In this document: positions 45,901 to 64,000 of the stretch, piece by piece
How positions within the stretch are numbered: position 1 is the first letter of the stretch
How the letters are laid out: each line of letters starts with the position of its first letter
Assembly (NCBI GenBank): GCA_002706765.1
Contig: PAJV01000058.1
Span: 124,001-188,000, forward strand
Length of the DNA stretch: 64,000 nucleotides
Origin: Gimesia sp.
GTDB lineage: Bacteria > Planctomycetota > Planctomycetia > Planctomycetales > Planctomycetaceae
Direction: 5' to 3'
The notes under the pieces: model-generated
Told to the model about the DNA's origin: nothing
The model's database searches: none
What the model saw: only the letters and a program-made list of their open reading frames with translations
Made by a program: the position numbers and the translations under genes

Positions 45901-48900
45901 AATGAAATTACTGGCCTCGTTCGTCAAAGTGACGATCAGTTCGCCATCAACACCGACAGTAAACGATGAACTCAGATCAAACCAGGCAACACCATCTTCG
46001 ATGAAACTGGATGGTGCTACGCTCTGATCTACATCAATAATCGCACCACCGTTAATAGAATAAGGGGCATCTGTCACACGATTATAGAGTTGAGACCATG
46101 TCGTAGAGACCCGATAGTTCCCTTCTGCCAGCCCGGTAAAGGTCCAGGTGGCAGTTTCCGTTGGCGGTGCTGGAGTATTGCCCGGATCATTGGGAACAGC
46201 CGCGGAGATATCTCCTTCGTAACCGTTAGATCCTGCATTCACCCCGGTTGAAAAATCCACAAAGCCAGGTGCTGAAAAGTCCGAATCTCCATTGTCGATG
46301 ATAACCACGTTGGAAACCTGACCATCCAGCAGAATATTGAAAGTCGATTCATCCACGTCATCCGTATCGAATGAGAAGATACCGGAACGGTCACCAAAGC
46401 TGTCCGACCCCATGGTAATGGTGAAGGAAATGGTAGAGCCGATTCCAATCGCCTGTGCTGTCAGATCCGTGGTATAACCGGCGGGCAATGAAATGTTGCT
46501 GATATTCAGTACGGCTGAGCCATTATTGGTAATTTCAAACGTACGCACCACATCGGTCAGCAGTTCGGTCGGGCCAAACTGAATTCCGTCTGGATGACCG
46601 TCTACAATCAGCGCCGGCGGAGCCAGAGCATCGGTTACATCAACCAGTTCAATCTCCGGTCCGTCAGAAACCCGTTCAATCCGAATCGCGTCAGCGGTAA
46701 TACGCCCGTTGGCCAGATTCGTCAGCATCACAGTCAGCGTTCTGCTGCTCACAGAGAATGTCCCGAGGATTTCCCAGGTTGTGCCATCTGCTGAATAATC
46801 ATCCGGAGTCACCTGCTGATCTACATCGAATGTCCCCAGGTCAAAGGCTGTGCCGCCAATCTCGGTTCGGGCTCCGTCATAGACAGTAAACGGTGCATCT
46901 GTAGCAGCAAACGGATTCGATGATTCGGGCCACGTGACGGAAACACGGTAGACACCAGGAGTCAGGCCAAAGAATTCCCAGAATGCCTGGGCAGGGCCGT
47001 TACCAATCGGATTAAAACCAGAAACCGAATGAATGTCGTCATCAAATCCGACTCCATTCGTGATTGCTAAGTTCTCCGGATTGTAAGGCCAGTCTCCGGT
47101 AATTGTGAATCCCGGATCTCCGTTATCTACGATGAAGGCGGGATTATCTTCAAAAGGTGTGATATTTTCGAAGTTCAGGTACTGGACTGTTCCCACGCCA
47201 TCCGCAGTCAGAGAGAAACCGGTATCGATTACTTCCTGTCCCTTGGCATCGAAGTCCAGCACGTCTGTTCCTCCCTGCCCGTCTGCAGAACGCAGAACCG
47301 GTGGTCCGTCAATCGGGTAGTTGCCATCCTGGGAGAGTGGATCGATATAGATATAATCGTCGAACTGGCTGCCGACCACATTTTCCATGAAACTGGGATT
47401 GGTGTCCGGCTGTTCGGGCTGGATCTGTCGCAATTCGACGGTATTGCCGCCAAACACATCCTGAGGCGTGTTGATAATATCCACGTCAAACGTGATACCA
47501 GCACTGGCAAAACGGAAGTCGATGGTGTCGTTGCCGTGAATGTCAGTAATCACATCGGCACTGCCACCGGCTCCCGGTTCCATCAGGAACACATCGTTGC
47601 CGCCATTGCCGCTTCCACCTTCCAGGATACCACCACCTGCGTCAAAGCCACCCCCATCCAGGATGTCACTGCCGAGGCCGTCACCCAGGATGTTGTTGTC
47701 GTTGTCGCCGGTGATATTGTCATCGCCATTACCACCGAAGACATTTTCGATGCTGTTGTCATCGTCACCGCCACCAGTGCCGGCTACCAGACCACCACCA
47801 ATATTGGTTGCAGTTCCTGCAAACAGGTTGACTGTGACGCCGGTAACGTAGTCACGGTAATCCAGGCTGTCATTTCCCAGACCCCCGTTCAAAGTTCCAG
47901 ACAAACCATCTCCGGCACTAAGGTCGAAGCGATCGTCCTGTGAACCACCAATCAGGTTCTGGAAGCTGGTGAAGTTCAGACGTTCTTCTGCTCCACTGGC
48001 AGTCGTATCGGCTCCGGTTGTCGGACGACCGCTGCTCAGCGGCAGACGATCAGCAATCAACATTCCCCCATCGAGAGTGGTGATCCCCCAGTAGTTATTC
48101 AAGTCCGGTCCCTGCAGAGTATCACTGCCGGTTGTACCGATCAGATTGTCGATATTGTTAAAGCCAAGGCTGGCGGGACCGGTTCCGAGAATACTGCCAT
48201 TGTCTTCACGTCCCTGGAACCCGTCAGAACTGCCAAGACCGGTCAGAACTACATTCACAACCGGAGTGTAGCCGCTGTAATCAATCGTATCATTTCCATT
48301 CCCGCCGTTGATGAAGCCTCGCAGCACATAGCTGTCCACGAAAATGAACTCGTCATTTCCATTATGCCCCAACAGGCGGGTATCAACGCCAACGGGCGTA
48401 TCACCCTGCAGGAAGAAATCATCGCTTCCCTGGAAACCGTTGATCGTCACGATACCCAGATCTTCCTGTGCTCCCAGGTTGACGTCGATCACATCGTTAC
48501 CGGCAGTAGTCATCAGATCCAGATTGTCAATCAAAGAAAACGTCACATCGATACCAGCGGAACTGCTGAGACCGTCTACGGTTGTAGAAGTGACTTCAAT
48601 CGTGTCACCGCTGCCATCGCCGGTATCCACGATCTCCAGAAGATCGCTTCCGTCCTGGCCGTTCACTGTGATGGCGGCAAAGATATTATCGACGGTATTT
48701 GCACCATCAAACAACTGGAACCGATCATTACCCAGTCCACCCAGCATGGTGACATTCGTAACCGTGCCGGCAGGCGTGGATCGCACTCGGATCCGATCAT
48801 TGGAATTATCGGTTCCCGAGATATCACCGGCATTCAAAACAATATCGGTCAGAGTGGTTGTAGAGTCCAGGCCGATCAGGTCCAGCACATCAGCGCCCAT

Positions 48901-51900
48901 TCCGGAAAGAACCTGCAGGTCACTGAAGCCTTCGAAAAGTACATTGGTAAATTGCATATTACCAACAATTTGCGAGATTCCGTCTCCAGCATTCCCGTCA
49001 TCGTTAATGGCAATCTGGTTCGTGAGTGAATTGGAAGAGGAATCCACCCGCAATTCACCGGCAGCAGTCCCACTGAAGCCCACACCTTCCAGACGGGCGA
49101 ACGACAGCCCCAGGTCAATATCGGTGCCTCCGATGGTAGAAGAAGTGATATTACCACTGCCCGCACCATCCATAGTATCCGTGAAGTAAGCGACATCGTG
49201 AGCTGTTGCAAAGATCACATTAACAGAGTCTATACCTGCACCACCATCGTAGTGAATCGTAATGTCATCCACTGTATAGGCTGGCGGATAGGTTGCATCC
49301 AGATAGGTATTCGCAGAGGCATTCAGATGCGAACCAGCAGACCCGGTCACTGCCGGAGCGGCCACCTGGAAGAAAGGCAGATCGCCGTTCGCATTTTCTT
49401 CGATGTTCAAGGTCTCGTCATCGGTAGACCCCACTACAGTAAAGGACAGTATATTGGCTTGAGCTCCTGTAAAGAAGTTGTCGTTGTTGATATCCAATAT
49501 CAGGTCTGTACCTGAGTTATCTACCGTCGCATCAATCGTATTACCGTTTCCATCCTGGAATCCGGACTGGAACATATCCAGTACCAGATGATAAGACCCG
49601 GCACTCGTATTGACATTTTCAATACTAGAATAATTCACGGCCAGTTCCGTATCGGGGGCCAGGAAGCTGAATGCTCCTGAACCGGCATCAACTCCCAGAG
49701 TCAGAACCGGTGCTGAAACCAGACCACTGAAGTCCAGGTTGAGCACATCACCGGGAACAGTAGGTAGCGTTGGATCGCCCCCGTTGATCGTAATCGGTGA
49801 ATCTTGTGTCGGCAGAATGTTGAATGTATCGTTGTCGTCTCCACCGTTGATCGTGGTGAGTGTGGCGTCTACATTGCCCAGCAGATCAACGGTAGCTCCC
49901 GTGCCATCGGTAATCGGATCAACGTTGATCTCAATGGTGGTCGCAGCTCGCACGGTGCCCGTCAGTGACAACAAGAAGTCATCACCAGAGTTCAGCACGA
50001 CATCAGCTGTCGTTGATTCAACAGTCACGCCGGCATTGATCGTCAGGTCATCCCCGGCACCAGCTGCATCGGTGGATGTCAAAGTAACGGTCCCGGCTGC
50101 GGTCACATTACTGTCAACGGTCAGCGGGCTGGCAGTTGTAATCGAGACAGCGCCATTGGTGGAAGTCACACCAGACAGCGGCGCGACATCACTAATCAAC
50201 AGGGCTCCCGTATTGCTGATGACGACATCATTATCAGTAGTAATCGCAGCCAGCGTTCCGACAGCGGTCTCAATGTCTTCGTCCCCTGTAGAAGTACCAA
50301 TGCCGTCCAAAGCACTGATCGACAACTGCCCCCCGCTGATCAGAGCGGTTTCTGCAACGGTGTTATCAACAATAGATCCACTGCTCGAGTCAATCGTAAT
50401 GATACCACCGGCACTTTGCAGGTCAGCCAGGCTGATATTATCAGTTGCGGTCACATTCAGAGCACCACCCTGGGCATTGACCACGGAACCTTCTGTTTGA
50501 ACAAAGGCACCACCGCCGGTGGTGTCACTGTCGGCTGTCAACGTCACCACTGCTGCAGAATTCGTATCAACCACAGAAGCGGCATTCAGATTCAGATTGT
50601 TTTCTGCCAGCAGGTCAATGGCTCCGCCGTTGGTTTCTACCGTACTGTTGACATCAATATCTCCCTGTGCGTCCACGAGGATCGTAGCAGCTGCTCCGGT
50701 CGCTTCAATAATGTCATCGACTGTCAGCGTACCGCCTGTCACCAGTGAAATATTATCGAGCGCCGTAATACCAGCCAGGGTATCAACAGTGCCAACCGTA
50801 AACCCGGTGGAACTTTCAATGAAAATATCACCAGCCGCTGTTTCTGCGGACACTGTTCCGACAGCCAGATCGATATCATCGGCCCCGGTAGCACCAATGC
50901 CCGTCGCAGCCCGCAGGGCCACGGTATCAGCGGTGATTAATGCTGCTTCGGATCCACTGATATCGGTAATCGCACCGGCAGAAGTCGTCACCTGGACTTC
51001 ACCACTGGTATTCACATTCGCCAGTTCGATGTCATTGGCTGCATCAATGTCAATCAGACCGGTGCCACTGCTGGTGACAGTGGAAGTGTCCGTCAGAGTC
51101 ACAGCTCCAGCTGAATCAATGCCGATCGCGAAGGTGCTGTTGTTGGAAATAATCGACAGGGCATTCAGAACAAAATCCCCACCGGTATTCTGCAGCAACA
51201 GATCACCGCCGGTTGCCGTGATATTTTCCGTCACTGTCATCGTGTCGGTCGAAGTAATCGTGGAAGAACCACCAACGGTCACTCCGTTAATCCCGCCCGC
51301 AAAACCGATATTGATGGCCCCCGTGTTATCAACATAGAGGCTCCCGGTCACATTTGCTTCCAGGCTGTCTACGGCCAGTTCGACTTCTGTTCCCGAGGCA
51401 CCGACGTCACCGGTTGCCCGCAGATCTGCGTTGGTGGCCGTCACCAGGCTGGTTCCGCTGATCGAACCGTTCGTCGCATTCATGGAGACATTTCCACTTG
51501 TCGTAATTGCAGCATTCAATGCAATGCTGCCAGCGGTAATGTCTAAGTTCCCTGTTCCCACATTGGTCGGATTCGTCAGAAATGTAACCGTATCATTGGT
51601 GCCGGCGATCACTGTCAGATTTGCTGTAAAACCAGCATCGACACCTTCGATGTTAATAGTATCCGCACCATCACCAATCGGAATGACGAGCGCATTTTCC
51701 GTATAAATGGTCACCGTACCTGTGGGATTAACAAAGTTGACTGATTCTCCCAGTGTAGAATCGATCAGCGTTTCCCCAACAGTAACATAATTTGAAAGCG
51801 TGATGGTTTCATCAGCAGCTGCGGTGAAACTGAAAGTACGATCGGTAGCAACGATCTGGTCATCAATCGGCTCTAACCCAGTATAAGTGATCGTCGCTTG

Positions 51901-54900
51901 TGATTCCCCATCCAGGAAAATGCTACCATCACTGGCACTCGTGAAAACATGCCCTACCGAGTTGACAGCTCCCGTGCGCTCAAGAATGAGCTCGTCATTT
52001 CCACCGGTTCCGCCTCTGAATTCGATCTGAATGTCCGTAGTATGATCGATAGTGTCTAGATCAATGGTCAAAGTATCGTTCTGGCCATCTTCACCGTGAA
52101 TTACCAGAGGACCGTTTATGGCAGCTACGGGAAATGTCGAGATGATCGTACCAGAAACGGTTTCGCTGAGAACAAAATTCCCTCCCACGATTTCCAGCGT
52201 GTACTGGTCTGCGGCGCCGTTGTTGGGTACTGTGATTTCCGGCGTGGAGTCGACCATATGAATCACAACATCGTTTCCGTCACCACCCAAATAGGTCAGG
52301 TAGGCATTTAACCCGCTACCCAGGAAATTTGTGAACACATGACCTTCAGGGTAGCCAACGAACTCTCCAGAAACCGGGTTGACTCCATTATTCTGAATTA
52401 AAGTAAACCGATCACCATCAGCGGGATTGAACCCATCAATCAGGTTCAGGTCCGCACCATTTAATGTCACGTCACCATTCACAACAATCTGATCAAATCC
52501 GGAACCAGCTGTTGTACCGTTGATTTCGATATCAAGTGCGTCATCACCATTTAAAATCAGATCACCGTTAATCACCACCTGACCGGGACTGGTGCCCGGG
52601 TGCAGGGAGACAGCCTTGCTGCCTGCGTCAACGTTGCCCGCGTAGCTTCCCGTGAGAATACGAACGGACTCTCCTCCCGCTGCATCGTCGATTGCCGGCT
52701 GAATAGCCATACCGGGTCCGACATAATAATCGGTCGAGGAAATCTCTTGAACCACGGCACTTAACGGATTCACTGCTTCTGCCGCAACTTTGGCAACAGC
52801 ATCGAAGGGATCTACGAAGTACCATTCGCCCTGGGGCAACCCAGACGTATCAAAGTCGGTGGAGACCGCATCGAGGCCGATTTCATCCACAAAATTCGCA
52901 AGGTTGGGGACCGAACCCTCGCCCTGGCGCTGGACCGGAATTGTTACGTTATTCAGCGAAAATGACTCGTTACCAGTGAGGATCAGGTTGATGTCGGGTG
53001 CATTTCCCGGTCCGCCAGGCAGCCCGGTAACCGAATCCGTCATCCCCGAGTCATCATTTGTCAGGTCGACCAGTTGAAATCCGATATCAACATTCGTCAG
53101 GTTGACAGCACCATCAATAGTGACATCCTGCTGCCCGCCGAACCGAACGAATGCTCCCCCTCCGAAGTTAAACGACTGAGTTAAAGCCGAAATGCCGACT
53201 TCTGCATTGGTAATGCTGACATTGTCGACCGAGAATGAAGTGGGCCCCTGAAACGCAACAATTCCGTACTCAACCGTGTCGGCAGAAAAGTCTTCGATCG
53301 TCACTCCCTCTGCATCAACAATTCGAATGCCGTCCTGGCTCGTGCCGAAGCCAATATCGAGAGGTGTGTACGCCCCGTCCGGATCCACACCGAAGGTAGT
53401 AACGTTTCTGATAACCGAATCATTGGAACCGTTCAACTCGATCCCACCGGTGACGTAATTCTGGAAAACCACATCTTCGATCGTAGTGCGATCCGCAGTG
53501 GACATGAAGATACGCGAGTAAGATTGGCCGGTGTTGGAATCCAGATTCTTGAAGCCGTCGACGAAGATGTTCTGGATGGTCACATCAGTCGCGGTGATGT
53601 TAATGACGTGGTTGCTCGCCTGGCCGCCCGCACTGACAGGAGCATAGACCGTTCCAACTCCCGGGTCTTCGTCCGCACCGGCACCGATCAGCGTCACCGA
53701 CTTGTTAATGTTTATTCCGTTGCCGCCTGCTGCGCCCGCTTCTGTGTATTCTCCGGCGGCAATATTGACCGTTCCCCCAGCATCCACACTGTCAATCGCT
53801 TCCTGAATCCGCCCTACCCCCCCTGTTTGTGCACCTAACGTAGTGACATTGAGTATGGAGAAATCACCCTGAAAACCTGCCAGCCCCACGTTTGTGTCTG
53901 CACCGTCATTCAAGAATGAAGTGAAGTCGACCATGAGTGGTGTGCCGCCATCTGCGTCTTCCATTAACGCTGCAATACTACTTTCGCTGGTGGTTCCCCA
54001 CCAGTTTCCCGAGGCATCGACTGCGGTTGTCTGGTCACCGAAATGTCGAATCGCTTTGGCATCGCCGCGAACGCCGCCATCGAGAAATGTGTTATTGTTG
54101 ATGTGAATCGTAGATGCATCGATCCCCGATCCTCCATCGGGGAGACGCAATCGGATCCCGTGAGTCGGCTCGGCAGCACCGGCGACATCGTTGTAGTGGA
54201 TTACGTTATTCTCGATTGTCACGTTCTCTGAAACAGTCGTGCCGTACTGTCCTCCCCAGAGCTCGAATGCCTGCCCAAAGAAACCAGGGCTGGCTTCGAT
54301 GTTCTGGAATGTGTTGCCGACGATTTCACCACCAATTGTTCCAACCTGAAAACCAGTGAAGGTATTCCCATCGAAAGTGTTTTCTCGGATCTGAATATTA
54401 CCAGCAGCGCCCATGTTCATCCCGACGCCGCCTGTAAACTCGTTCTGTTCGACGACAGCGTCATTGATCGTGCCGCCGTTTTGGAAGATTCCCCCCGTCG
54501 TTCCAGCGAAGTGGTTTCCGACAATGTGCATTCTCTCGAAAGAACCGCCTCCACCGACCACCAACGCATTTCCGTCTCCCGTGAACTGAAAGAGGTTTTG
54601 TTCGACTGTCAAATCATCAAACGAACCGGATTGCAACTGGATGCCACCTTGAACCCCCGGAATATTTGTGTTGTTGAAAATGTTGTTGGCAATGGTCAAG
54701 TTATCCGCACTTGCGAAGCTATCGATCACACGTCCGCCGTTTCCTTCGAAGGAAAAACCGTCGATTGTGACATCGTTCGCAGTCGGCTGAATCGCATAAA
54801 AACCATTATGGTCAATAATACTTTCGGCTGCTCGGGCCATGCCATTCGGGTCGATACCTGCATTAGCTCCGAGCAAATCGACCGACTTGTTCAATGAGAT

Positions 54901-57900
54901 CAGCCCGCTATAAGTACCGGCGGCGACATTAATGGTCGCGCCTGAGGCAGCCAGATCAATGGCGTCCTGAATCTCGGCGCCACCAGCAGAACCTTCAATA
55001 TTTACGGTGGTCACATTTCCTGAAATACTGGCGGAATTTAAATCTCCATCCAGAGTAACTGTTGTGCCATCGAAGACGATACTATCTGCTGCTACCGAAA
55101 AGCCATTATCGAGATCGAACGTTTCCGCATTAAACTGGATCGATTTCCCCGCAGCCAGTGAAACAGAAGCATCGACATTGATTGTATCAGTTTCATCGTC
55201 GCCATTGATGATAATGTTGGCACTGTAGTCGGCAGCGAGAGAAATGATGTTGATGGTATCTGCACCAGTCCCGGCATTGATAGTCAACGTTCCCGTAGGG
55301 TTGATAAAGTCAGTCATTTCTCCGAGAGAAGAATCGACTCGGGTCTGTCCACCGCCCAGATCAGAGATCTCGATGGTCTCAGCGCCCCCGGTATAAGTCA
55401 ACGTCACGTTTGTGGCGTTAACGGTGGATGTAACCGGCTCCAGACCGGTATAGGAAATGAAATCTGAGCCTGAGTTATTCAGCCTGATGCTTCCGGTACT
55501 GGGATCCACATAGAGAAACTCCATGGAATCCAGGTTGCCACCAACCAGTTCTAAAGTATCATGTCCACCAGCCCCACCATTAAAGATTATCTGGAGATCT
55601 GTCGTTTCATCGATACCGGTCATATCGATCGTCAATGTATCGTTCTCACCAGCTTCGCCATTGATGACCAGTGCGCCACCCAAAGCAGCAAGGTGATAAT
55701 TGGAAATTATATTCCCTGAACCCACTTCAGTAATAACGACGTTACTGCCGATGATCTGCAGGGTATATTCATCCGCAGCACCATCATTGGGGATCGTCAC
55801 AACAGGACTGGGGATCTCAGTATAAATCGCAACATCATTACCATCTCCGCCTGAATAAGTCAGAAAAGCAGAAAGCCCGGCGACTCCGAGAAAATCGGTA
55901 AACTCATGCCCTTCAGGATATCCATTAAAGGTTCCAGTAACAGGATTAGGTCCATCATTTTTGATCAGGATAAACGATTCTGCAATCCCTGGGGTATGAC
56001 CATCAATCAGGTTCAGCGTCGCACCACCCAGTGCCAAATCTCCGTTGACGACAAACTGGTCGTATTGTGTTCCAGCAATTGTTCCATTGACTTCGATATC
56101 AACAATGTCGTTGCCGTCCAGTTTCAGATCACCATCAATGACCACCTGCCCCGGACCGCTGCCGGGGACCAGCTTCACACTTTTATCAATACCCGTTGCT
56201 GTGGCATCTACGTTACCTGCATAGGTTCCACTGGCGATATTGATCGTCCCACCAGAAGTTACCGCAACAATGGCTTCCTGAATCCGGCTCAAAGGCCCGG
56301 TCTGTTCCCCCAGGGCGGTTACATTCACGACGCTGAAATCACCCTGAAATCCAGCGGTTCCACCATCTGTATCCGTGCTGTTATCCAGGTAGGAAGAGAA
56401 ATCAACCCCTGGAGTCATCAAGGCAGCAATCGCTGTTTCATCGGTGATCCCCCACCAGTTGCCCGAAGCATTGACTGTCGCGCCGAACCCACTGACGACC
56501 CCCAGGCTATTTCCTGCCACTGAGTTGTTGTTGATATTCAGCTGGGCACCAGGTGTCAGTCCGCCGGGAAGCCCATTCAGTGTGTCAAAAACACTGACGG
56601 CTGCGTCAAAACCGGTAATCGTATTGTTGGTCACGTTGATCAGCGCTGTTGCAGAGATCGGTCCCATGTCTGCATTGTTGGTGTCGACGTAGAGAGCGGA
56701 TGTCTGAACGCCCGCAGTATTACTGTCAGACAGAGTATTTCTGCTCACAGTGATATTGTCAGAGCCGCCCATCAAGCGGATACCAAACACATTGTTTGCA
56801 CCACCTGAGGTGGAACCAATGAAGTCAATGGTATTGTCACTGATCACTACAGGAGCGTGGCTGGAACCGGAGTGCAGTGAAACGTCAATCCGTCCCCAGT
56901 TGGCAGTGAGATCTCCGACGTCACTGGTAATGGTATTCCCTGAAATCGTGACCCCCTGTTCCAGAGGTACTCCGCTACTGTTGAGCTGAATCGTTGGCTT
57001 GTCAGCACCGGAAAAATCGTTGTCGGTAATGAAGATATTACCAAAGTCAGTGCCGGAACCATTGTATTTGTTGTTCAATACGATGTCACGGAAGTTGTCA
57101 GTAAACGTGTTATCGCTGAATGTGGAATCGCGCAGTTCTTCAGCATAGATACCAACATTGGTGATGTTGCGAATCTGTGAATTGGTCACTTGAAGATCGC
57201 TCAGGTGACCACCTGTCGCATCACTTTTGCTGGCTTCGTTGATGGCACTTGACAGGCCATTAAAATCAGTGTTATCGACATAAATCCCAGCAGCGACTGC
57301 AGTCGTGGCCATGCGGATGCCGGTACCGCTCGTCCCTACGAAGAAACTGTTTGTAACACTGAGATTCGTTAAAACGGCATCATTGTGTATCTCAATACCA
57401 TACGTACTGATATCGCTGAAACGGACGTTATCAACCTGTAAGTTGTCGACAGCAGAATTAACGCGAATCCCCTGTGATGCGTTAAGCATTTGAAGATTCA
57501 TATCCTCAAAGCTCACATCATCGGCAGTCACGGTAAACAGATTACCGGTGCCACCAACAAAAGTGTCAGCTGTCCCTGCACCGTCCAAAGTCACTGATTT
57601 ATCAACATTCACATTCTCATTATATGTACCCGCGGCAATATGAATGGTTGCCCCTGATGCAGCCAGATCAATCGCTTCCTGAATCCGCCCCACTCCGCCT
57701 GTTTGTGCACCTAACGTAGTGACATTGAGTGTGGAGAAATCACCCTGAAAACCAGCGGTTCCATCTTCCGTATCTGTGCCGATATTCAGGTAAGAAGTGA
57801 AGTCGACCTTCGAAGCGTTGCCATCATCACCGTCGCTCTTCATGGAATTAGCGATTGTTGTTGCGTCCGTGATGCCCCACCAGTTGCCGGAGGCATCAAC

Positions 57901-58836
57901 AGTATCTCCACCGTAATGAGCGATGGGGTTGGTGAGTGTTAAGGAGTCAAAAAAGTTGTCATGAGCGGCTACATCGGGTATGCCATTGGAAATGTTATTG
58001 TAGACCCCGATACCTTCCAATGCGTTGCTGAAGGCGTTGCCTTCGATACTGACATCAGTAACGAAGTCGTTGGCGACGCCTGCGACCACGTCATGGATGT
58101 TGTTGCCGAAAATGTCTACATTCGTGTTGCCCTGGTTATGAATACCGGCGGCCCAATAGTAAATTTCGTTGTTCTGGATCGTGATGTTGTCGTTATTTCC
58201 ATTAAATGTGGAGAGCACACCACGACTTTCGACTCCTGTTCCCGGGCCTTCCAGAATATTATTCTCGATCGTATGCCCCGTGGTGCCGGTGGCCATGAAG
58301 ACGGCAGATTTACTGCCAATGCCGGCCGGACCGGCCCCCTCGACGATCTTGAAGCCGTCAATCACGACATCGTTTGCAAAGAGACGAAACCCGCCGGTCA
58401 GTTCACTTTCCAGACCGCGGACACCAGGGTCAACCCCCGCAGCAATCCCGGCATTGGCTCCCTGAATAATCACGGAGGTATTCACGATCACATCTTCGGT
58501 ATAAGTGCCGGCGGCCACGATGATGGTATCGCCTGCGACTGCTGCGGACACCGCTTGCTGGATAGTTGTAAATGCAGTGAAACCAAATTCCGCATTCTGA
58601 TCATCGCCTGCAATGGGATCAGTATCAGTTCCAGAGAAGTCAGACGTTCCGGTAAAATCATCATCCACAAAAAAAGTGGTGAGCAACGTGCGGTCTTCGA
58701 GTGCTTCTGTTGTGGAGATCTGATTTTGAATGATCGACTGCCAGCGTTTGCGGATGTCGCGGCGGTCGCGGGATCGAAAAACACGGCGTTTTGAAATTTT
58801 GGAAGTGAGTGTGTTGAGCCAGTTCGTCAATAGCAT
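42994..58836 (-). CDS. Giant modular surface protein (~5,280 residues) with LExRxLL leader, beta-helices, RTX-like repeats, ASH/golvesin-like repeats and metzincin-like C-terminus
   Basis: The largest gene here. A basic N-terminal stretch leads to LEDRTLLT (about 58,685-58,708), the LExRxLL motif common at the start of very large planctomycete exported proteins. From 58.65 to about 52.2 kb there are several NosD-like beta-helix blocks that recur with GGVGRIQEAID and SGATI(H/N)(I/V)AAGTY. About 51.7-49.9 kb is adhesin-like (repeated phrases such as ITTSGNVSMNATNGSI). About 48.3-47.5 kb has calcium-binding-like GGNGNDTIDYSG repeats. From 47.2 to 43.5 kb five golvesin-like IDNGDxGF units alternate with four ASH-like domains. 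The end carries HEMGHTLGYDD and LMGETLDASERR. Probably cell-surface or secreted adhesion. I chose the ATG at 58836 (AAGGA upstream) over a TTG nine codons earlier. Confidence 0.9.
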   Translation of the reverse strand: MLLTNWLNTLTSKISKRRVFRSRDRRDIRKRWQSIIQNQISTTEALEDRTLLTTFFVDDDFTGTSDFSGTDTDPIAGDDQNAEFGFTAFTTIQQAVSAAVAGDTIIVAAGTYTEDVIVNTSVIIQGANAGIAAGVDPGVRGLESELTGGFRLFANDVVIDGFKIVEGAGPAGIGSKSAVFMATGTTGHTIENNILEGPGTGVESRGVLSTFNGNNDNITIQNNEIYYWAAGIHNQGNTNVDIFGNNIHDVVAGVANDFVTDVSIEGNAFSNALEGIGVYNNISNGIPDVAAHDNFFDSLTLTNPIAHYGGDTVDASGNWWGITDATTIANSMKSDGDDGNASKVDFTSYLNIGTDTEDGTAGFQGDFSTLNVTTLGAQTGGVGRIQEAIDLAASGATIHIAAGTYNENVNVDKSVTLDGAGTADTFVGGTGNLFTVTADDVSFEDMNLQMLNASQGIRVNSAVDNLQVDNVRFSDISTYGIEIHNDAVLTNLSVTNSFFVGTSGTGIRMATTAVAAGIYVDNTDFNGLSSAINEASKSDATGGHLSDLQVTNSQIRNITNVGIYAEELRDSTFSDNTFTDNFRDIVLNNKYNGSGTDFGNIFITDNDFSGADKPTIQLNSSGVPLEQGVTISGNTITSDVGDLTANWGRIDVSLHSGSSHAPVVISDNTIDFIGSTSGGANNVFGIRLMGGSDNITVSRNTLSDSNTAGVQTSALYVDTNNADMGPISATALINVTNNTITGFDAAVSVFDTLNGLPGGLTPGAQLNINNNSVAGNSLGVVSGFGATVNASGNWWGITDETAIAALMTPGVDFSSYLDNSTDTDGGTAGFQGDFSVVNVTALGEQTGPLSRIQEAIVAVTSGGTINIASGTYAGNVDATATGIDKSVKLVPGSGPGQVVIDGDLKLDGNDIVDIEVNGTIAGTQYDQFVVNGDLALGGATLNLIDGHTPGIAESFILIKNDGPNPVTGTFNGYPEGHEFTDFLGVAGLSAFLTYSGGDGNDVAIYTEIPSPVVTIPNDGAADEYTLQIIGSNVVITEVGSGNIISNYHLAALGGALVINGEAGENDTLTIDMTGIDETTDLQIIFNGGAGGHDTLELVGGNLDSMEFLYVDPSTGSIRLNNSGSDFISYTGLEPVTSTVNATNVTLTYTGGAETIEISDLGGGQTRVDSSLGEMTDFINPTGTLTINAGTGADTINIISLAADYSANIIINGDDETDTINVDASVSLAAGKSIQFNAETFDLDNGFSVAADSIVFDGTTVTLDGDLNSASISGNVTTVNIEGSAGGAEIQDAIDLAASGATINVAAGTYSGLISLNKSVDLLGANAGIDPNGMARAAESIIDHNGFYAIQPTANDVTIDGFSFEGNGGRVIDSFASADNLTIANNIFNNTNIPGVQGGIQLQSGSFDDLTVEQNLFQFTGDGNALVVGGGGSFERMHIVGNHFAGTTGGIFQNGGTINDAVVEQNEFTGGVGMNMGAAGNIQIRENTFDGNTFTGFQVGTIGGEIVGNTFQNIEASPGFFGQAFELWGGQYGTTVSENVTIENNVIHYNDVAGAAEPTHGIRLRLPDGGSGIDASTIHINNNTFLDGGVRGDAKAIRHFGDQTTAVDASGNWWGTTSESSIAALMEDADGGTPLMVDFTSFLNDGADTNVGLAGFQGDFSILNVTTLGAQTGGVGRIQEAIDSVDAGGTVNIAAGEYTEAGAAGGNGININKSVTLIGAGADEDPGVGTVYAPVSAGGQASNHVINITATDVTIQNIFVDGFKNLDSNTGQSYSRIFMSTADRTTIEDVVFQNYVTGGIELNGSNDSVIRNVTTFGVDPDGAYTPLDIGFGTSQDGIRIVDAEGVTIEDFSADTVEYGIVAFQGPTSFSVDNVSITNAEVGISALTQSFNFGGGAFVRFGGQQDVTIDGAVNLTNVDIGFQLVDLTNDDSGMTDSVTGLPGGPGNAPDINLILTGNESFSLNNVTIPVQRQGEGSVPNLANFVDEIGLDAVSTDFDTSGLPQGEWYFVDPFDAVAKVAAEAVNPLSAVVQEISSTDYYVGPGMAIQPAIDDAAGGESVRILTGSYAGNVDAGSKAVSLHPGTSPGQVVINGDLILNGDDALDIEINGTTAGSGFDQIVVNGDVTLNGADLNLIDGFNPADGDRFTLIQNNGVNPVSGEFVGYPEGHVFTNFLGSGLNAYLTYLGGDGNDVVIHMVDSTPEITVPNNGAADQYTLEIVGGNFVLSETVSGTIISTFPVAAINGPLVIHGEDGQNDTLTIDLDTIDHTTDIQIEFRGGTGGNDELILERTGAVNSVGHVFTSASDGSIFLDGESQATITYTGLEPIDDQIVATDRTFSFTAAADETITLSNYVTVGETLIDSTLGESVNFVNPTGTVTIYTENALVIPIGDGADTINIEGVDAGFTANLTVIAGTNDTVTFLTNPTNVGTGNLDITAGSIALNAAITTSGNVSMNATNGSISGTSLVTATNADLRATGDVGASGTEVELAVDSLEANVTGSLYVDNTGAINIGFAGGINGVTVGGSSTITSTDTMTVTENITATGGDLLLQNTGGDFVLNALSIISNNSTFAIGIDSAGAVTLTDTSTVTSSGTGLIDIDAANDIELANVNTSGEVQVTTSAGAITDISGSEAALITADTVALRAATGIGATGADDIDLAVGTVSAETAAGDIFIESSTGFTVGTVDTLAGITALDNISLVTGGTLTVDDIIEATGAAATILVDAQGDIDVNSTVETNGGAIDLLAENNLNLNAASVVDTNSAAVVTLTADSDTTGGGAFVQTEGSVVNAQGGALNVTATDNISLADLQSAGGIITIDSSSGSIVDNTVAETALISGGQLSISALDGIGTSTGDEDIETAVGTLAAITTDNDVVISNTGALLISDVAPLSGVTSTNGAVSITTASPLTVDSNVTAAGTVTLTSTDAAGAGDDLTINAGVTVESTTADVVLNSGDDFLLSLTGTVRAATTIEINVDPITDGTGATVDLLGNVDATLTTINGGDDNDTFNILPTQDSPITINGGDPTLPTVPGDVLNLDFSGLVSAPVLTLGVDAGSGAFSFLAPDTELAVNYSSIENVNTSAGSYHLVLDMFQSGFQDGNGNTIDATVDNSGTDLILDINNDNFFTGAQANILSFTVVGSTDDETLNIEENANGDLPFFQVAAPAVTGSAGSHLNASANTYLDATYPPAYTVDDITIHYDGGAGIDSVNVIFATAHDVAYFTDTMDGAGSGNITSSTIGGTDIDLGLSFARLEGVGFSGTAAGELRVDSSSNSLTNQIAINDDGNAGDGISQIVGNMQFTNVLFEGFSDLQVLSGMGADVLDLIGLDSTTTLTDIVLNAGDISGTDNSNDRIRVRSTPAGTVTNVTMLGGLGNDRFQLFDGANTVDNIFAAITVNGQDGSDLLEIVDTGDGSGDTIEVTSTTVDGLSSSAGIDVTFSLIDNLDLMTTAGNDVIDVNLGAQEDLGIVTINGFQGSDDFFLQGDTPVGVDTRLLGHNGNDEFIFVDSYVLRGFINGGNGNDTIDYSGYTPVVNVVLTGLGSSDGFQGREDNGSILGTGPASLGFNNIDNLIGTTGSDTLQGPDLNNYWGITTLDGGMLIADRLPLSSGRPTTGADTTASGAEERLNFTSFQNLIGGSQDDRFDLSAGDGLSGTLNGGLGNDSLDYRDYVTGVTVNLFAGTATNIGGGLVAGTGGGDDDNSIENVFGGNGDDNITGDNDNNILGDGLGSDILDGGGFDAGGGILEGGSGNGGNDVFLMEPGAGGSADVITDIHGNDTIDFRFASAGITFDVDIINTPQDVFGGNTVELRQIQPEQPDTNPSFMENVVGSQFDDYIYIDPLSQDGNYPIDGPPVLRSADGQGGTDVLDFDAKGQEVIDTGFSLTADGVGTVQYLNFENITPFEDNPAFIVDNGDPGFTITGDWPYNPENLAITNGVGFDDDIHSVSGFNPIGNGPAQAFWEFFGLTPGVYRVSVTWPESSNPFAATDAPFTVYDGARTEIGGTAFDLGTFDVDQQVTPDDYSADGTTWEILGTFSVSSRTLTVMLTNLANGRITADAIRIERVSDGPEIELVDVTDALAPPALIVDGHPDGIQFGPTELLTDVVRTFEITNNGSAVLNISNISLPAGYTTDLTAQAIGIGSTISFTITMGSDSFGDRSGIFSFDTDDVDESTFNILLDGQVSNVVIIDNGDSDFSAPGFVDFSTGVNAGSNGYEGDISAAVPNDPGNTPAPPTETATWTFTGLAEGNYRVSTTWSQLYNRVTDAPYSINGGAIIDVDQSVAPSSFIEDGVAWFDLSSSFTVGVDGELIVTLTNEASNFIRDNYGQSAHGVIADAVRIEYLPEPDLEITVDGGIVVDDDTGIVDFGSTIPGIPVIKQFTITNLSADDVDVTGLIEFPPGFSIDPASPFGTDNVPVTIAGGDSVTFSIQFDGGTNGTTFGQISFTTGDADENPFNFTVRGESGPATVGINDSDFTPTGTWEGYTPSNVGDPLFLTAGEPFQTGSGSNTATWNFVVEPGRYQVVAHWYVNPDVTMNGHGAASNAPYTIIGGALPVTVRVNQRVSSNDFLDDGINWEYIGNPVEITGNSLIVELTDDLANGLIYADEIRIYRVVDPVVDVVVDGDSLADGGTVNFDDTIEGAPVVKTFTVTNYGERNMALGTISIPAGFSIVSPLGSSNLAPGASTTFTLQMNASSAGSFSGVVSFGVDSSDANPFNFTVSGSASDSMIIDNGDIGYSTTGDWVPRYATSVYDYYQNDQDELFGGDQPGSNTASWEFTNLAEGTYRISSHWASHSGLESNAQFVISGIQGGDITVTLDQRFAANDFTDAGVSWETLGTFQVAAGGTFTITLLDDGATSKLAADAMRLDILSIGSIAPEIEVQAGAVNLTSGSSSLDLGTAFYGESLFQTFTITNTGTDTLNLSPVIAPAGFSISVPLGTNTLYAGQSTTFEVEFNNTTAAGLYSGTLTIPNDDADEAPFTIDLSATMNASLIIDDGDAGFSSSGGFYAVNWVTYFEGDTRQLLTGANGTATWDFSSLTAGSYTVYATWAAHGSLATNAEYSINAGGPIVVNQRVAPNDLNSDGANWGILGVVNVLAGGSISVELTDNAANGKIRADAIRIERTGPLMAAAGVSPSNAPAITQSDLDSVRDAALNYWKATGLSETQISLLESVNFVLADLPDAMLGGATTTTILIDINAAGYGWFVDDTPFDSSEFSLDADGDLVAGIGSAAFGQMDLLTVMLHEMGHTLGYDDLDSDDSLMGETLDASERRLPEIDDFFSGVAEGDNPLLD
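53795..53874 (-). repeat. 80-bp coding repeat in the giant gene, copy 2
   Basis: Nearly identical to 57671-57750, with only a few substitutions and no gaps over 80 bp (shared runs include CCTGTTTGTGCACCTAACGT). It encodes GRIQEAID preceded by DFSILNVTTLGAQTGGV. The nucleotide identity exceeds what the protein needs, so duplication or gene conversion was recent. Confidence 0.75.
57671..57750 (-). repeat. 80-bp coding repeat in the giant gene, copy 1
   Basis: The partner of 53795-53874. It encodes the hinge DFSTLNVTTLGAQTGGVGRI before a new beta-helix block. A third, more diverged relative lies near 56,265-56,355 and encodes DFSVVNVTALGEQTGPLSRI. Confidence 0.75.
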
Positions 58837-59371
58837 CCTGTCATTCCTTCGTAAGTGATTCAAAAGTCTCGGGGGATGAGAAATATCGCCTCTGTAACTC
58901 TTATTTTCTAACTGTCTATTTCAACCAGATCTCGATGCGAGAACTGAACATTCTCCTCATTTTCCTGCTAAAACGTGAATAACTCTCGTTCTACGTAATC
59001 AACCTATTTTCATATAAGATAATAGGATTAACCAAACTGTGGAAGAATTTCCACTATAAAATGGGACTTCTATTACAATTTTAACAAATTGGGCGCTTTT
59101 TCTGATTAATCTACAATGTAGGCATTTTGCAACAAAATACCTATACAGAATCAGGGACTCAAAGAAGATCGTTCAGATCTGAACGGTTATTTCTGCACAG
59201 CTATGAGAGAAAAACGCTTTTGCTGTCTGCTGCCCTGCCGACAATCTGTCGCCTGTTCCTGTCTGTATTTAAGAGTCTGGTACGAATTCCGAATTACAAA
59301 ATAAATGTCTGATCAACAATGAACTTCCTCCGATTACCGGCCCGTGAGACGATTTCCTCAGCCATTGATCC
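58837..59371. other. AT-rich upstream region of the giant surface-protein gene
   Basis: Markedly AT-rich compared with the rest of the window and without a convincing gene. It holds an 18-bp motif shared with the sialidase upstream region and, partly overlapping it, an inverted repeat GTGGAA-N4-TTCCAC at 59039-59054. It probably contains the promoter of the giant gene. Confidence 0.5.
59047..59064 (-). promoter_or_regulatory. 18-bp motif upstream of the giant gene, shared with the sialidase gene
   Basis: The plus strand reads ATTTCCACTATAAAATGG, identical to 60529-60546. It lies about 210 bp upstream of the giant gene's ATG. Both copies have the same orientation relative to a downstream minus-strand gene. 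Regulatory function is inferred from this shared placement. Confidence 0.4.
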
Positions 59372-60409
59372 TCAGCGATAGAACTGACTGATCTGATAAA
59401 TCCGCAGAGTGATTTCTGAATCACGTTTCCAGCGGGTGGATCGCGAATAATACGCAATGAGTGCCTCATCACCGATAAATGTCACAGATGGATATGCTGC
59501 ATCAAATGTCTCGCGCGCATCAATGTCCTGAAAATGTCCCCAGGTTTTCCCCTCATTTTTTGAAATCGCAGCAGTCAGCGGAGTACGCGGCCAGTTCGAG
59601 GGAGAAGCGACATTATTCCACAACAACAGCAGATCTCCTGTTGACGGTATGCGTTTTACAATCGCTGGTTCGTGACAACCACGGCCCGGAGCGGTCATGC
59701 TGTCAGCACTCCGTTTCCACGTGCGAAAACCATCATCCGAGTAAAACACAAACGAATGCAGGTTGCCTCCCTTATAGGAAGTTCCGCCCACGTACTTTTT
59801 CGCATAAGGACCATGTGCGGGGATCAGCACGCGCCCTGATCTGAGCCGCAGCGCATGGTCGGCGTTGCAGCAGTACCAGCCCGGCTCTGATATCTGTCGC
59901 TGCTCACCCCAAGTCTTTCCGTTATCGGTTGACCGTCGCAGATAGATATTTCGTTGACTCGCATCATCCCAGCCCACATAAGAGAACAGAATTTCCTGTT
60001 CGGACAGACGAATCAGATTCGGATGTTTGACGTTCTGCTTCCAGCGATTAGGCTGCAGCACCTGCCGTGCTCCCCAGCTGCGCCCCTGATCAGTCGAAAT
60101 CAGGGAAGAAATCTGGCAGGCCACATGGTCACCAGCTCCCGAAAAGCCTTTCTTTGTCGCAGGCGCTTTCGACTGACTGTAATACTCTGACCAGACAAGC
60201 AGTAATCGCCGCTGATCCAGGGGAAAAATTAATTGGTGATCGTGACGGGGATGCCCGGGTTGCCAGGGACAGACGATCTGATCATGCACGGGTTTCAGCA
60301 GACGTCGATTCCCACCGGTTGACTCCCCCTTCGCTGGTAATCGCAGGGGAGACAACAGACATGCCAGAGCCGTTGACAGTGATGATCTTGCAAAATCGCG
60401 TCGTCGCAT
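59372..60409 (-). CDS. Exported sialidase-like (BNR-repeat) protein
   Basis: A 345-residue protein with a Tat-like leader (MRRRDFARSSLSTALACLLS). The body is a six-bladed sialidase-type propeller. Asp-box-like motifs are SSLISTDQGRSWGARQV, LRRSTDNGKTWGEQRQI, FVFYSDDGFRTWKRS and AAISKNEGKTWGHFQD, about 50-60 residues apart. An active-site-like HDHQLIFPLDQRRLLLVW stretch is near the start. Planctomycete members of this group usually act on unknown glycans and are not proven neuraminidases. It precedes the giant surface gene by about 530 bp in the same direction, and the two share an upstream 18-bp motif. Confidence 0.85.
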   Translation of the reverse strand: MRRRDFARSSLSTALACLLSPLRLPAKGESTGGNRRLLKPVHDQIVCPWQPGHPRHDHQLIFPLDQRRLLLVWSEYYSQSKAPATKKGFSGAGDHVACQISSLISTDQGRSWGARQVLQPNRWKQNVKHPNLIRLSEQEILFSYVGWDDASQRNIYLRRSTDNGKTWGEQRQISEPGWYCCNADHALRLRSGRVLIPAHGPYAKKYVGGTSYKGGNLHSFVFYSDDGFRTWKRSADSMTAPGRGCHEPAIVKRIPSTGDLLLLWNNVASPSNWPRTPLTAAISKNEGKTWGHFQDIDARETFDAAYPSVTFIGDEALIAYYSRSTRWKRDSEITLRIYQISQFYR

Positions 60410-60878
60410 CGTTTTGATTACCGGTTTCTCTCACAGGGGATGTAACAGAAAGAGGCTCGATTGTAACAGCGAATTTTTCAGACTGCGAGCAGGTTTTCTT
60501 AATAGAAAGATCAGGAAACCGTGATTTTATTTCCACTATAAAATGGCAAGGCTGGGGGATACCTCGGATCTATTCAGGACCCAGCGTTTAACCGTTCATT
60601 CCGATCTAATTGTCTTAATAAATCCGCAGTCGAAAAAACTCCGAACGCAGGTGTAGATTAATCTCAAACAGATCTGATCTGTATACTGTTTTCAACTGTT
60701 TTTCACCAAACCTGTCAACATCCGCGCAGCCCCCGACCTGATAGATTCTGAATCCGGAAAGAGTCTGTTGTGAATTGGTGAAACATTGCAAAAAACCCTT
60801 CGCAGCAGGAATACTGATGTCGATAACAGTGAGAGGCGCTGGTCAATCGAACCGATTTCATGTCTGGATGAATTAATC
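60410..60878. other. Divergent intergenic region
   Basis: Between the minus-strand sialidase gene and the plus-strand outer-membrane protein gene. It holds the second copy of the 18-bp motif. No RNA gene is apparent; a longer in-frame start at 60786 exists for the downstream gene but seems unlikely. Confidence 0.4.
60529..60546 (-). promoter_or_regulatory. 18-bp motif upstream of the sialidase gene
   Basis: ATTTCCACTATAAAATGG on the plus strand, identical to 59047-59064, placed 120 bp upstream of the sialidase ATG. On the minus strand it contains CATTTTATAGTGGAAAT. It might be a shared operator or promoter. Confidence 0.4.
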
Positions 60879-62000
60879 ATGTCTTTGAGTCCATGTAAAA
60901 GTTGCTGCATTTTTTTTCTTGTCATGCTTATTCTCTGCATCATTGAAAAGAACAGTGCAGTATCAGCAGAACAATTCACCAGCGACACCGATCTGGTGGA
61001 ACATTACCAGTTCACAGATCAGGGGCTGGAATTGGATTCAGACTCACTAGACCGGTTGAGGTTTGACTCCCAGACTCAGTACCGCAATCATCCACAACTG
61101 GCGGAAGTGGAAAGTCTGCTCTCCCCCGCGGAACTTGAGAATATCGACCTCGATCCGGTCTCGTACAGTGACGAAGAACCCGCGTGTGTGATCTCTCTGG
61201 AACCAGAGCAAACAAAGCAGCTGGAATTATTCCTGGGTCTGGAAGGTTCCAAGCAGCCACAGGATTTTGGAGTCAACGCCCATTTCGGTTCCCGACTGCA
61301 TGCCAATTATGGATATCAGTTATTCGAAGATTCGTCTCTTGGATTTCAGATCGGTACGGCAGTCAATCTGACAGATCACGCCGTGCGTGTGACATCGCAA
61401 GTTGATGGTGCCAGTTCACGCACGCAAAGTTTTACCACACTGGGTTTTTTCCAGAGACACGATCGCATCAGCTGGGCCGTCGTCTTTGACTATCTCTATC
61501 AGCAGGATTACTCAAGCGTCTCTTTAAGCCAGCTGCGCATGCAGGGCGGATACACGCTGAATGAGTGTCAGGAAGTGGGTGCATTTTTCATGTTCCCCAC
61601 ATCTGACGCCAAAGCAGAATGGGCGGGCATTCCCGTTGCCCTTGATCCCCTGGCACAGGGTGCTTTCTATTTCAGACAGACCTGGGATCACGGAGCCGAG
61701 ACGACATTCTGGCTTGGAGCTGCCGAAGGTCACGGCCAGGTGAATGCGGCACTGGGAGATACTTCTGACACGAACGTCCAGATCGCCTTCGGCTCTGACT
61801 TTCATGTCCCCCTGAATAATCACGTCGCTCTGTTCGGGCAGGCGAATTTCATCATGCCTTCGGATACAGGAACGGTCGACGCTTATCTGGGTTTTGCCTT
61901 TTATCCGGGTGGCAATGCCTATGGCTGGCGCAAACAACAGTATGCTCCTGTACTTCCGGTCGCCAGCAACACCTCATTTGCCGTGGACCTGGATCGATAA
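60879..62000 (+). CDS. Probable outer-membrane beta-barrel protein
   Basis: A 373-residue protein. The leader CCIFFLVMLILCIIEKNSAVSAEQ predicts export. After an acidic region (about 30-115, with SLEPEQTKQLELFLGLEGSK) the rest is built of alternating strands with aromatic belts: HFGSRLHANYGYQLFEDSSLGFQIGTA is the start of a barrel, then TTLGFFQRHDRISWAVVFDYLYQQ, QMYFRQ-like turns, and HVALFGQANFIMPSDTGTVD, ending YLGFAFYPGGNAYGWRKQ. It looks like a planctomycete-specific barrel and I know no function. The ATG at 60879 was chosen because the signal peptide begins there. Confidence 0.7.
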   Translation: MSLSPCKSCCIFFLVMLILCIIEKNSAVSAEQFTSDTDLVEHYQFTDQGLELDSDSLDRLRFDSQTQYRNHPQLAEVESLLSPAELENIDLDPVSYSDEEPACVISLEPEQTKQLELFLGLEGSKQPQDFGVNAHFGSRLHANYGYQLFEDSSLGFQIGTAVNLTDHAVRVTSQVDGASSRTQSFTTLGFFQRHDRISWAVVFDYLYQQDYSSVSLSQLRMQGGYTLNECQEVGAFFMFPTSDAKAEWAGIPVALDPLAQGAFYFRQTWDHGAETTFWLGAAEGHGQVNAALGDTSDTNVQIAFGSDFHVPLNNHVALFGQANFIMPSDTGTVDAYLGFAFYPGGNAYGWRKQQYAPVLPVASNTSFAVDLDR

Positions 62001-62165: not shown

Positions 62166-64000
62166 ATGCAGACATCCTCGACAGAGGAATCAGGGGAGCA
62201 AAAAAATCATTCACTCCCTGAGCCCGCTGATCAGACACAGGTTTCAGCCCCTATCGTCCCATCTCCTCCAACACAAGGCGGGGAAACCGATCCCGTTACG
62301 ATTGGTAAGTATCCTGTAATTCGCAAGCTGGGCAGCGGAGGCATGGCGAACGTTTATCTGGCGATCAATCCGGCAGATCATTCAGAAGTTGCCATTAAAG
62401 TTCATCTGGAGTCGATGGAATCGAATCCCCATCTGGTAGAACGTTTTCAGAAAGAGACGCGGCTGCTGGCTGAAATCAACCATCCCCACGTCACCAATTT
62501 ACTGGAAGCGGGGGAATATCAGCAGAAACTTTACCTGGCCATGGAGTATGTGCCCGGCATCGACCTCAAACAGTTACTCAGACTGCAGAAGCGACTTCCC
62601 GAAAAAGCGGCATTGAAAATCATTCGTGATATAGCAGATGCCCTCAGCTTCGCACATCAAAAAGGCATCGTCCACCGCGATATCAAACCCGCGAACGTGT
62701 TACTGGGTGATTTCACAAACACGACGGAGTCTGGCGCAGATACATTCTGCAAGATGATTTCTGATGATCAACATCCCATCGTCAAACTTACGGACTTTGG
62801 TCTGGCCAGGCATATGAACCAAAGCGAATCACTGGCATTAACCAAAACCGGGGCAATGCTGGGGACCCCTTATTACCTCGCACCCGAGCAGTGCATGGAT
62901 ACTGCTCCCATCCAGCCGACTACAGATATTTATTCGCTGGGTATTACCCTGTTTGAACTTCTCGCAGGTCGCCCCCCCTTCCTGGCTCAGGATTCGGTGA
63001 AGCTGATCACCATGCATTGTTTCGAGCAACCCCCTGATCTGAAAAAACTCAACCCCGAAGTCAGCGACGCGGTAGCGGCCCTGGTGGAACGCTGCCTGCA
63101 AAAACGACCGGAAGCGCGATTTGCAGACGGAGAACATTTACGCGATGAAATTGAACGGATCCTGGCAGGTGAATTAACACCTGTGCCACAGCATCCTCTC
63201 ATTCCTGCCAGCAAAACCAGCTTAATGGAAGCCAGCTGGGAATGGGAATTGTCCTGCACTCCCGAGCAACTCTGGCCTTTTGTCTCGAATACAGAGCGGA
63301 TCAATAATGCAATCGGGCTGCCTCCCGTCGAATATACGACCGGTCGCGATGAACATGGCGCGATTTCCAAAACCGGCTCCTTTCGACTGGGTTGGGCCAG
63401 ACTGGAATGGCGGGAACACCCGTTTGAATGGATCGAAGGCAAGCGACTGGGTGTGATTCGCGAATTCACGACTGGTCCCTTTCAGTGGTTTTCCAGTGTT
63501 GTCCAACTGCATCCATTACCGCAGGGCGGGACACGCCTGGTCCATCAGGTAAAAATAGCACCACGGGGACTACTGGGTCGCCTGCTGGCTTTCCTCGAAG
63601 TCAATGTGAATGGTCGCAAGAAACTGAATCTGATCTATCCACGAATCGATCAGATCATTTCGAAACAGAATTATCAGCAGGCTCAGCTGGACCCGTTCCA
63701 GGTATCTGCCCCCGTCAAAAAACGAATTCAGTCACGCCTGAGCGAGCGTATCAGCCAGATCCAGCAACAAGGTGCAGACGACACCTGCACCAAAGTTCTG
63801 GAAAAGTTTATTAATACTGCAGCAGCACAGGAGATCGCCCGAATCCGGCCGTTGGCTCTGGCTGATGCAGTCGATTGCCAGCGTGAGCCACTTACTGAAA
63901 CCTGTCTGCATGCCTGCACCCAGGGAGTTCTGCAACTGCACTGGGACATCCTCTGCCCGACCTGTCGTATTTCCACTACCGTGCGTGACACACTGGCTGA
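62166..64000 (+). CDS. Multidomain Ser/Thr protein kinase with SRPBCC and DUF5939 domains (3' end beyond the window)
   Basis: The frame runs off the right edge after 611 codons. A Pro/Ser-rich 45-residue head leads to a Hanks-type kinase (about 46-315): glycine loop LGSGGMANVYLA, VAIK with Lys78, HRDIKPAN with Asp172, DFG with Asp210, and LAPEQC. All catalytic residues are kept, so it should be active. An insertion lies between the HRD and DFG motifs. Residues of about 357-500 form an SRPBCC (START-like) domain beginning SWEWELSCTPEQLWPFV. From about 559 comes IARIRPLALADAV followed by VLQLHWDILCPTCRI, which matches DUF5939, a domain that usually precedes an adenylate/guanylate cyclase domain. 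No transmembrane segment was seen in the visible part. Confidence 0.9.
   Translation, partial: MQTSSTEESGEQKNHSLPEPADQTQVSAPIVPSPPTQGGETDPVTIGKYPVIRKLGSGGMANVYLAINPADHSEVAIKVHLESMESNPHLVERFQKETRLLAEINHPHVTNLLEAGEYQQKLYLAMEYVPGIDLKQLLRLQKRLPEKAALKIIRDIADALSFAHQKGIVHRDIKPANVLLGDFTNTTESGADTFCKMISDDQHPIVKLTDFGLARHMNQSESLALTKTGAMLGTPYYLAPEQCMDTAPIQPTTDIYSLGITLFELLAGRPPFLAQDSVKLITMHCFEQPPDLKKLNPEVSDAVAALVERCLQKRPEARFADGEHLRDEIERILAGELTPVPQHPLIPASKTSLMEASWEWELSCTPEQLWPFVSNTERINNAIGLPPVEYTTGRDEHGAISKTGSFRLGWARLEWREHPFEWIEGKRLGVIREFTTGPFQWFSSVVQLHPLPQGGTRLVHQVKIAPRGLLGRLLAFLEVNVNGRKKLNLIYPRIDQIISKQNYQQAQLDPFQVSAPVKKRIQSRLSERISQIQQQGADDTCTKVLEKFINTAAAQEIARIRPLALADAVDCQREPLTETCLHACTQGVLQLHWDILCPTCRISTTVRDTLA

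Follow-up and report, generated by a model that had tools for sequence, protein, structure and literature searches.

The closest described relatives of the protein analysed here are the DUF5939 class III cyclases, proteins of approximately 600–650 aa in which an SRPBCC part, DUF5939 and a cyclase domain stand in the same order as in our protein and can be aligned with it from end to end. They differ from it in being kinase-free and in keeping, with two exceptions among the 44 compared here, all six catalytic residues; a few of those 44 have no SRPBCC part. The catalytic set of class III cyclases, as known from mammalian adenylyl cyclase, consists of two metal-binding Asp, a substrate-binding Lys and Asp/Thr, and the transition-state Asn and Arg, and proteins of this fold dimerise naturally.

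A second parallel is offered by the receptor guanylyl cyclases, whose kinase homology domain is thought to act as a scaffold and to transmit the signal (PMC10400071). These proteins also unite kinase and cyclase folds in a single chain, one of them active and the other dead. In the protein considered here, by contrast, the kinase looks active and the cyclase looks dead, the protein is bacterial, and no extracellular part was seen; in outline, the kinase–pseudocyclase arrangement would thus resemble a mirror image of the eukaryotic combination of a pseudokinase with an active cyclase.

Among bacterial proteins, the TOMM system kinase/cyclase fusion (TIGR03903) likewise joins a Hanks kinase to a cyclase-type domain; this assignment was rejected for our protein, which reached 125.1 bits against an equivalog cut-off of 705.75, with the kinase part only. 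Hanks kinases are also paired with FHA readers of the FhaB/OdhI type, FHA being a phosphothreonine-reading domain, and here too the kinase adjoins an FHA protein, the FHA part of which is matched below cut-off by the NCBIfam FhaB and OdhI models. Unlike those partners, the FHA protein of this locus also carries an EAL domain, the type found in c-di-GMP phosphodiesterases. Pseudokinases are well studied; a search of open-licence journal papers returned none on a conserved pseudocyclase family, DUF5939 or FHA-EAL proteins, and to our knowledge little is known of the wiring from Ser/Thr phosphorylation to c-di-GMP in planctomycetes.

Materials and Methods

The window, i.e., the whole stretch of 64,000 nucleotides that was analysed, belongs to a genome of 7.9 Mb (G000). 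The comparison covered 126 non-redundant proteins in which the cyclase region was complete, among them the window protein; 79 were kinase-fused and 47 were without a kinase motif. Of the 61 places fetched, four with incomplete or interrupted frames (L064, L067, L095 and L096) were excluded from the alignment; from the 80 named loci, 4 without a cyclase region and 7 duplicates (more than 97% identical) of rows already present were dropped. Frames with and without a kinase were told apart by a motif pattern, which was checked by Pfam in eight proteins; L061, missed by the pattern, was assigned to the kinase-fused group by Pfam. The genome scan retained the best 80 of 135 confirmed stretches, some of which were not kinase-fused, and since its patterns were SRPBCC peptides of kinase-fused proteins, the sample favours the latter. 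The columns of the six catalytic residues were set on the intact relative L066. A quick tree was built from the SRPBCC and DUF5939 columns, the cyclase columns being omitted. The structure model was made on the sister protein L103 (AlphaFold2, residues 336–950, 56-row alignment A2, mean pLDDT 90.4); this protein, from a Planctomycetaceae MAG, is the nearest named relative of the window protein (88% identity over the C-terminal 615 residues).

Results and Discussion

The frame that begins with an ATG near the end of the window is still open at the window edge, and its stop lies 1,018 bases farther on (position 5018 of locus L002). The full product has 950 aa, and its translation was identical to that of the window where the fetched adjoining stretch overlapped it. 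From the N-terminus to the C-terminus, it contains a Ser/Thr kinase, a likely SRPBCC domain, DUF5939, in which four Cys form a motif, and a domain with the class III cyclase fold (Table 1). The first-pass annotation had foretold a cyclase beyond the edge, and the continuation of the frame past 64,000 indeed encodes a class III cyclase fold, whereas the catalytic residues of that fold proved to be incomplete (see below).

Table 1. Features of the kinase locus (positions beyond 64000 are window-equivalent; domain identities are predictions)
Feature	Position	Strand	Product or residues	Basis or remark
DUF6666 gene	60786..62000	+	404 aa	Pfam PF20371, 83.8 bits; upstream of the kinase gene
Kinase-SRPBCC-DUF5939-putative pseudocyclase gene, 5' part	62166..64000	+	611 of 950 codons	remainder in L002, to 65018
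Ser/Thr (Hanks) kinase domain	62313..63125	+	residues 50–320	Pfam PF00069 (Pkinase), 186.6 bits
Likely SRPBCC (Bet v 1-like) domain	63225..63662	+	residues ~354–499	boundaries transferred from the model of sister L103
DUF5939 (PF19363), part in window	63759..64000	+	residues 532–646	Pfam; ends at 64103
FHA-EAL gene	65046–66212 (L002:5046-6212)		388 aa	FHA 63.9 bits, EAL (PF00563) 157.7 bits; directly downstream of the kinase gene

A chance fusion or an assembly join as the origin of the kinase–DUF5939 order was rejected because the identical domain order recurs across many assemblies. The joining of a Hanks kinase to this set of domains had been called unusual, which is true of the genus, where DUF5939 was found in 2 of 17 genomes, that of the window included, but not beyond it, since the search for the architecture across genomes uncovered a recurrent family with at least 79 non-redundant examples. 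DUF5939 itself was present in 10 of 59 relatives and in 49 of the 392 phylum genomes drawn. Named organisms with kinase-fused relatives include Blastopirellula marina, Rhodopirellula maiorica, Neorhodopirellula pilleata, Botrimarina colliarenosi and Zavarzinella formosa; others came from MAGs labelled Myxococcales, Polyangia and Deltaproteobacteria, labels that may be wrong, and a MAG labelled Kuenenia grouped with Planctomyces MAGs in the tree.

Both the profile and the catalytic set (glycine loop, Lys, HRD, Asn, DFG, APE) place the kinase among the Hanks type, and with G56 of the glycine loop, K78, D172 of HRD and D210 of DFG present, it looks active as far as its sequence goes, in agreement with the initial description of an apparently active Ser/Thr kinase. 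The VAIK Lys, αC Glu, HRD Asp, Asn, DFG Asp and APE Glu were conserved in 78 of 78 aligned kinases and the glycine loop in 76, the remaining two being gapped there; the HRD motif was part of the pattern by which kinases had been selected, and therefore the conservation is independent only for the Lys, the Glu, the DFG Asp and the APE Glu. Catalytic residues were retained in 78 of the 79 kinase-fused proteins. The exception, L061 (1835-5074), has the order kinase-SRPBCC-DUF5939-pseudocyclase with a degenerate cyclase tail, and its kinase looks dead by decay, or its record is faulty, because the catalytic loop, HRD aspartate through DFG, is missing.

Among the 76 proteins with an N-terminal kinase, a long region preceded the kinase in 49 and none did in 27, two of the latter (L122 and L143) being cut by a contig; the window protein is of the short form. 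This long region gave a Pfam kinase match above cut-off in all four proteins tested, and the canonical catalytic motifs were absent by eye from it in 12 inspected. In L014:5253-6137, as in other long forms, an extra kinase-like domain lies N-terminal to the active-looking kinase. Two paralogues of one genome (L058:7259-10084 and L059:7590-10496) show the reversed order, SRPBCC-DUF5939-pseudocyclase followed by a C-terminal kinase, supported by Pfam in L058; in these, too, the cyclase is degenerate.

The identity of residues ~354–499 as an SRPBCC domain, as originally proposed, is likely, as judged from the model of the sister protein and from relatives. A Pfam scan of the full 950-aa sequence gave no SRPBCC match, while Polyketide_cyc2 (PF10604) matched the corresponding place in three of eight scanned relatives, above cut-off in L054 (28.0 against 27.4) and below it in L061 and L063. 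The secondary structure of the L103 model points to a helix-grip fold, and the SRPBCC part of the model matched the PR-10 structure 3e85 in Foldseek with an E-value of 2.3 × 10−6, though with a target TM of only 0.39. The DUF5939 assignment made at first reading was borne out by a significant match (63.3 bits against a curated cut-off of 22.5; profile positions 10–125 of 281). Its two Cys pairs, C597/C600 inside the window and C619/C622 beyond the edge, were conserved in 57 of 57 aligned proteins, and this four-Cys motif is consistent with a zinc ribbon, zinc being presumed from the motif.

Of the best 50 Foldseek matches listed for the L103 model, 49 were class III adenylate/guanylate cyclases and the remaining one was a PR-10 protein, on the SRPBCC part. 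The best cyclase matches, Rv1900c and Ma1120, had target TM values of 0.74–0.76 with an rmsd of 1.7–1.8 Å. A PDB sequence search with the last 238 residues of the window protein gave marginal matches, the top three of which were the class III cyclase Ma1120 (E-value 0.017 to 0.02). The cyclase family profile PF00211, by which the continuation was to have been recognised, found no match in the full 950-aa protein or in its C-terminal 238 aa (E ≤ 10, HMMER filters on), and among five kinase-fused relatives scanned, only L018 matched, at 21.2 bits under the cut-off of 21.9. In the order first metal, Lys, second metal, Asp, Asn and Arg, the catalytic-site residues of the window protein are Q794, K834, D838, D889, T896 and I900; hence, three of the six are replaced (Gln794, Thr896 and Ile900). 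The replacements strike both functional halves of the site, the first metal Asp on one and the Asn and Arg on the other, and therefore a homodimer would be incomplete, as would either half of a heterodimer. An active cyclase was rejected on these residues, and the suggested synthesis of cAMP or cGMP is not supported; because the defining catalytic residues that were tested are incomplete, the protein was not classed as an enzymatic class III cyclase. The C-terminal domain is thus very probably not a working cyclase, while the loss of residues is compatible with residual or altered chemistry.

None of the 79 kinase-fused proteins had all six catalytic residues, whereas of the 44 kinase-free proteins whose contig includes the start, 42 had them (exceptions L065 and L176); three further proteins without a kinase motif, cut by the contig end, were counted apart (L086 complete, L114 and L150 degenerate). 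The number of residues kept among the 79 was 0 in 3 proteins, 1 in 11, 2 in 28, 3 in 29 and 4 in 8. By site, the base-recognising Asp was retained in 61, the Lys in 58, the Arg in 22, the Asn in 7 and the first metal Asp in 6, and the second metal site was D or E in 66. The lost sites were diverse, with 14 letters, Asp among them, at the first metal site and 11 letters, including Asn, plus a gap at the Asn site. In the tree, a single branch (SH-aLRT 89, rising to 96 when the two reversed-order proteins were omitted) set off the kinase-fused rows, along with L114 and L150. Since the kinase-fused set forms one clade, the correlation between fusion and residue loss represents one event, not 79, with no independent replicates, and independent losses of the cyclase residues were rejected for the same reason; only three independent pairs exist, too few to assess the correlation across origins. 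The clade therefore counts as a single change, after which the active site appears to have drifted.

It could be argued that the C-terminal domain still has an enzymatic role, either as a cyclase of non-canonical type or by pairing, itself non-catalytic, with another class III cyclase of the cell in a heterodimer. The retention of K834, D838 and D889, and of the same three sites in most of the kinase-fused proteins, is in line with this, and a candidate partner exists in the genome, namely, a 594-aa FHA-cyclase (L203:502-2286; PF00211 40.9 bits, FHA 24.5 bits), the one other class III cyclase found there and the only one recognised by PF00211, the motifs of which look intact by eye. However, with the first metal Asp, the Asn and the Arg all lost, neither face of a heterodimer would be completed, the wide variation of letters at the lost sites is that expected if catalysis is no longer selected, and the PF00211 searches also speak against it. 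We therefore hold a surviving enzymatic role to be very unlikely.

Between the source genome of the window and G006, dN/dS was 0.116 for the pseudocyclase and 0.083 for the kinase; between G049 and G377, it was 0.108 and 0.053, respectively, with dS near saturation. The pseudocyclase is under purifying selection, and because its dN/dS was this low in two species pairs, the domain is regarded as still maintained. We consider it probable that the kinase is regulated by this half of the protein. The C-terminal half would then be a former cyclase converted to a regulatory module, in which a ligand might be bound by the SRPBCC pocket, the degenerate cyclase pocket or both, the cyclase fold would retain its dimer-forming role, and the ligand-dependent dimer would switch the trans-autophosphorylation of the kinase.

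As a special case of this regulated-kinase reading, the pseudocyclase might be a nucleotide sensor that binds ATP, GTP or a cyclic nucleotide and tunes the kinase without catalysis. The Lys/Asp pair, which has outlasted the Asn, the Arg and the first metal Asp in the counts given above, would agree with such a role. This retention, however, may be structural, because a conserved strand contains the Lys and an LDYFG motif contains the Asp. In the three Schlesneria rows, the Lys is replaced by Asp and the second metal residue by Gly. We regard the sensor as rather unlikely.

Of the 67 kinase loci for which 1200 nt or more were available, 18 had an FHA-EAL gene immediately downstream in the same orientation and 49 lacked one there; with the loci cut by contig ends included, the count was 20 of 79. 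In 19 of the 20 adjacent cases, it overlapped the kinase gene or lay within 56 nt of it. All 20 loci belonged to one 30-row subclade, and in the 13-row subclade that holds the window protein, the gene was found downstream in 12 of 12 evaluable rows. The key FHA residues were conserved in 20 of 20 adjacent copies. In what we take to be the EAL catalytic residue set, eight positions were conserved in every copy reaching them (18–20 rows), and at the ninth, Glu was replaced by Asp in 3 of 18 copies, the neighbour of the window protein included. Profile and catalytic residues together point to a c-di-GMP phosphodiesterase of the EAL type, and seven GGDEF matches were found in the source genome. 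The adjacency of the kinase gene to a gene of the c-di-GMP-degrading type hints that these two signalling systems of bacteria may be connected. An obligate partnership of FHA-EAL with the DUF5939 kinase was rejected because free FHA-EAL copies exist: in 20 places fetched from relatives (L183-L202), some of them short contigs, no DUF5939 kinase stood beside the FHA-EAL gene. Four of these stretches (L192, L195, L200 and L202) hold some other kinase-like frame.

In the proposed chain, the FHA domain of the neighbouring FHA-EAL protein would recognise phosphothreonine on the kinase or on a client, and this recognition would place or gate the c-di-GMP phosphodiesterase. That FHA-EAL is the reader of the phospho-signal of the kinase is an assignment to which we lean slightly. 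On balance, we favour describing the 950-aa protein as a Ser/Thr kinase regulated by a pseudocyclase module, with c-di-GMP, through phosphothreonine–FHA recognition, as its likeliest output. The chain in its entirety is offered tentatively and with some doubt: the cyclase would have become a mere control domain that senses a ligand, dimerises and governs an active kinase, FHA-EAL would read the phospho-signal and set c-di-GMP, and many members would add an N-terminal pseudokinase. If true, it would be a natural reuse of a second-messenger enzyme as a kinase regulator, the pocket of which could be tested, and planctomycetes would have a direct connection between Ser/Thr phosphorylation and c-di-GMP.

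The gene upstream of the kinase gene encodes the only DUF6666 protein found in the source genome. The model of a sister protein (pLDDT 78.0, with the first hundred residues poor) was strand-rich with a signal-like helix, and its fold matches were outer-membrane barrels, from which DUF6666 is predicted to be a secreted outer-membrane-type beta barrel. The kinase might accordingly act mainly in an envelope pathway with this neighbour, its adjacency to FHA-EAL being incidental. Of the 79 kinase loci, 25 had a DUF6666 relative close to the kinase gene, on either side and either strand; 16 of these also had FHA-EAL and 9 were without it in the sequence available. The two domains co-occurred in 6 of 59 relatives (6/4/7/42, Fisher p = 0.005) and, in the 392 phylum genomes, in a 5/6/10/371 distribution (Fisher p = 1.6 × 10−5), both tests being uncorrected for kinship, made with genome lists entered by hand and assuming that both domain surveys covered the same 392 genomes. 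Against this explanation stand the tight spacing of FHA-EAL and kinase genes described above and the phosphothreonine-reading nature of FHA, and a secreted barrel would presumably not meet a cytosolic kinase directly; we judge an envelope pathway with incidental FHA-EAL adjacency to be improbable.

Two further frames lie on the opposite strand ahead of the DUF6666 gene. The frame at 59372-60409 (−) has 345 residues with a BNR repeat-like, sialidase-like domain (PF13088, 65.5 bits), and that at 42994-58863 (−), of 5289 residues, looks by eye like a secreted repeat protein with parallel beta-helix-like and calcium-binding-like repeats.
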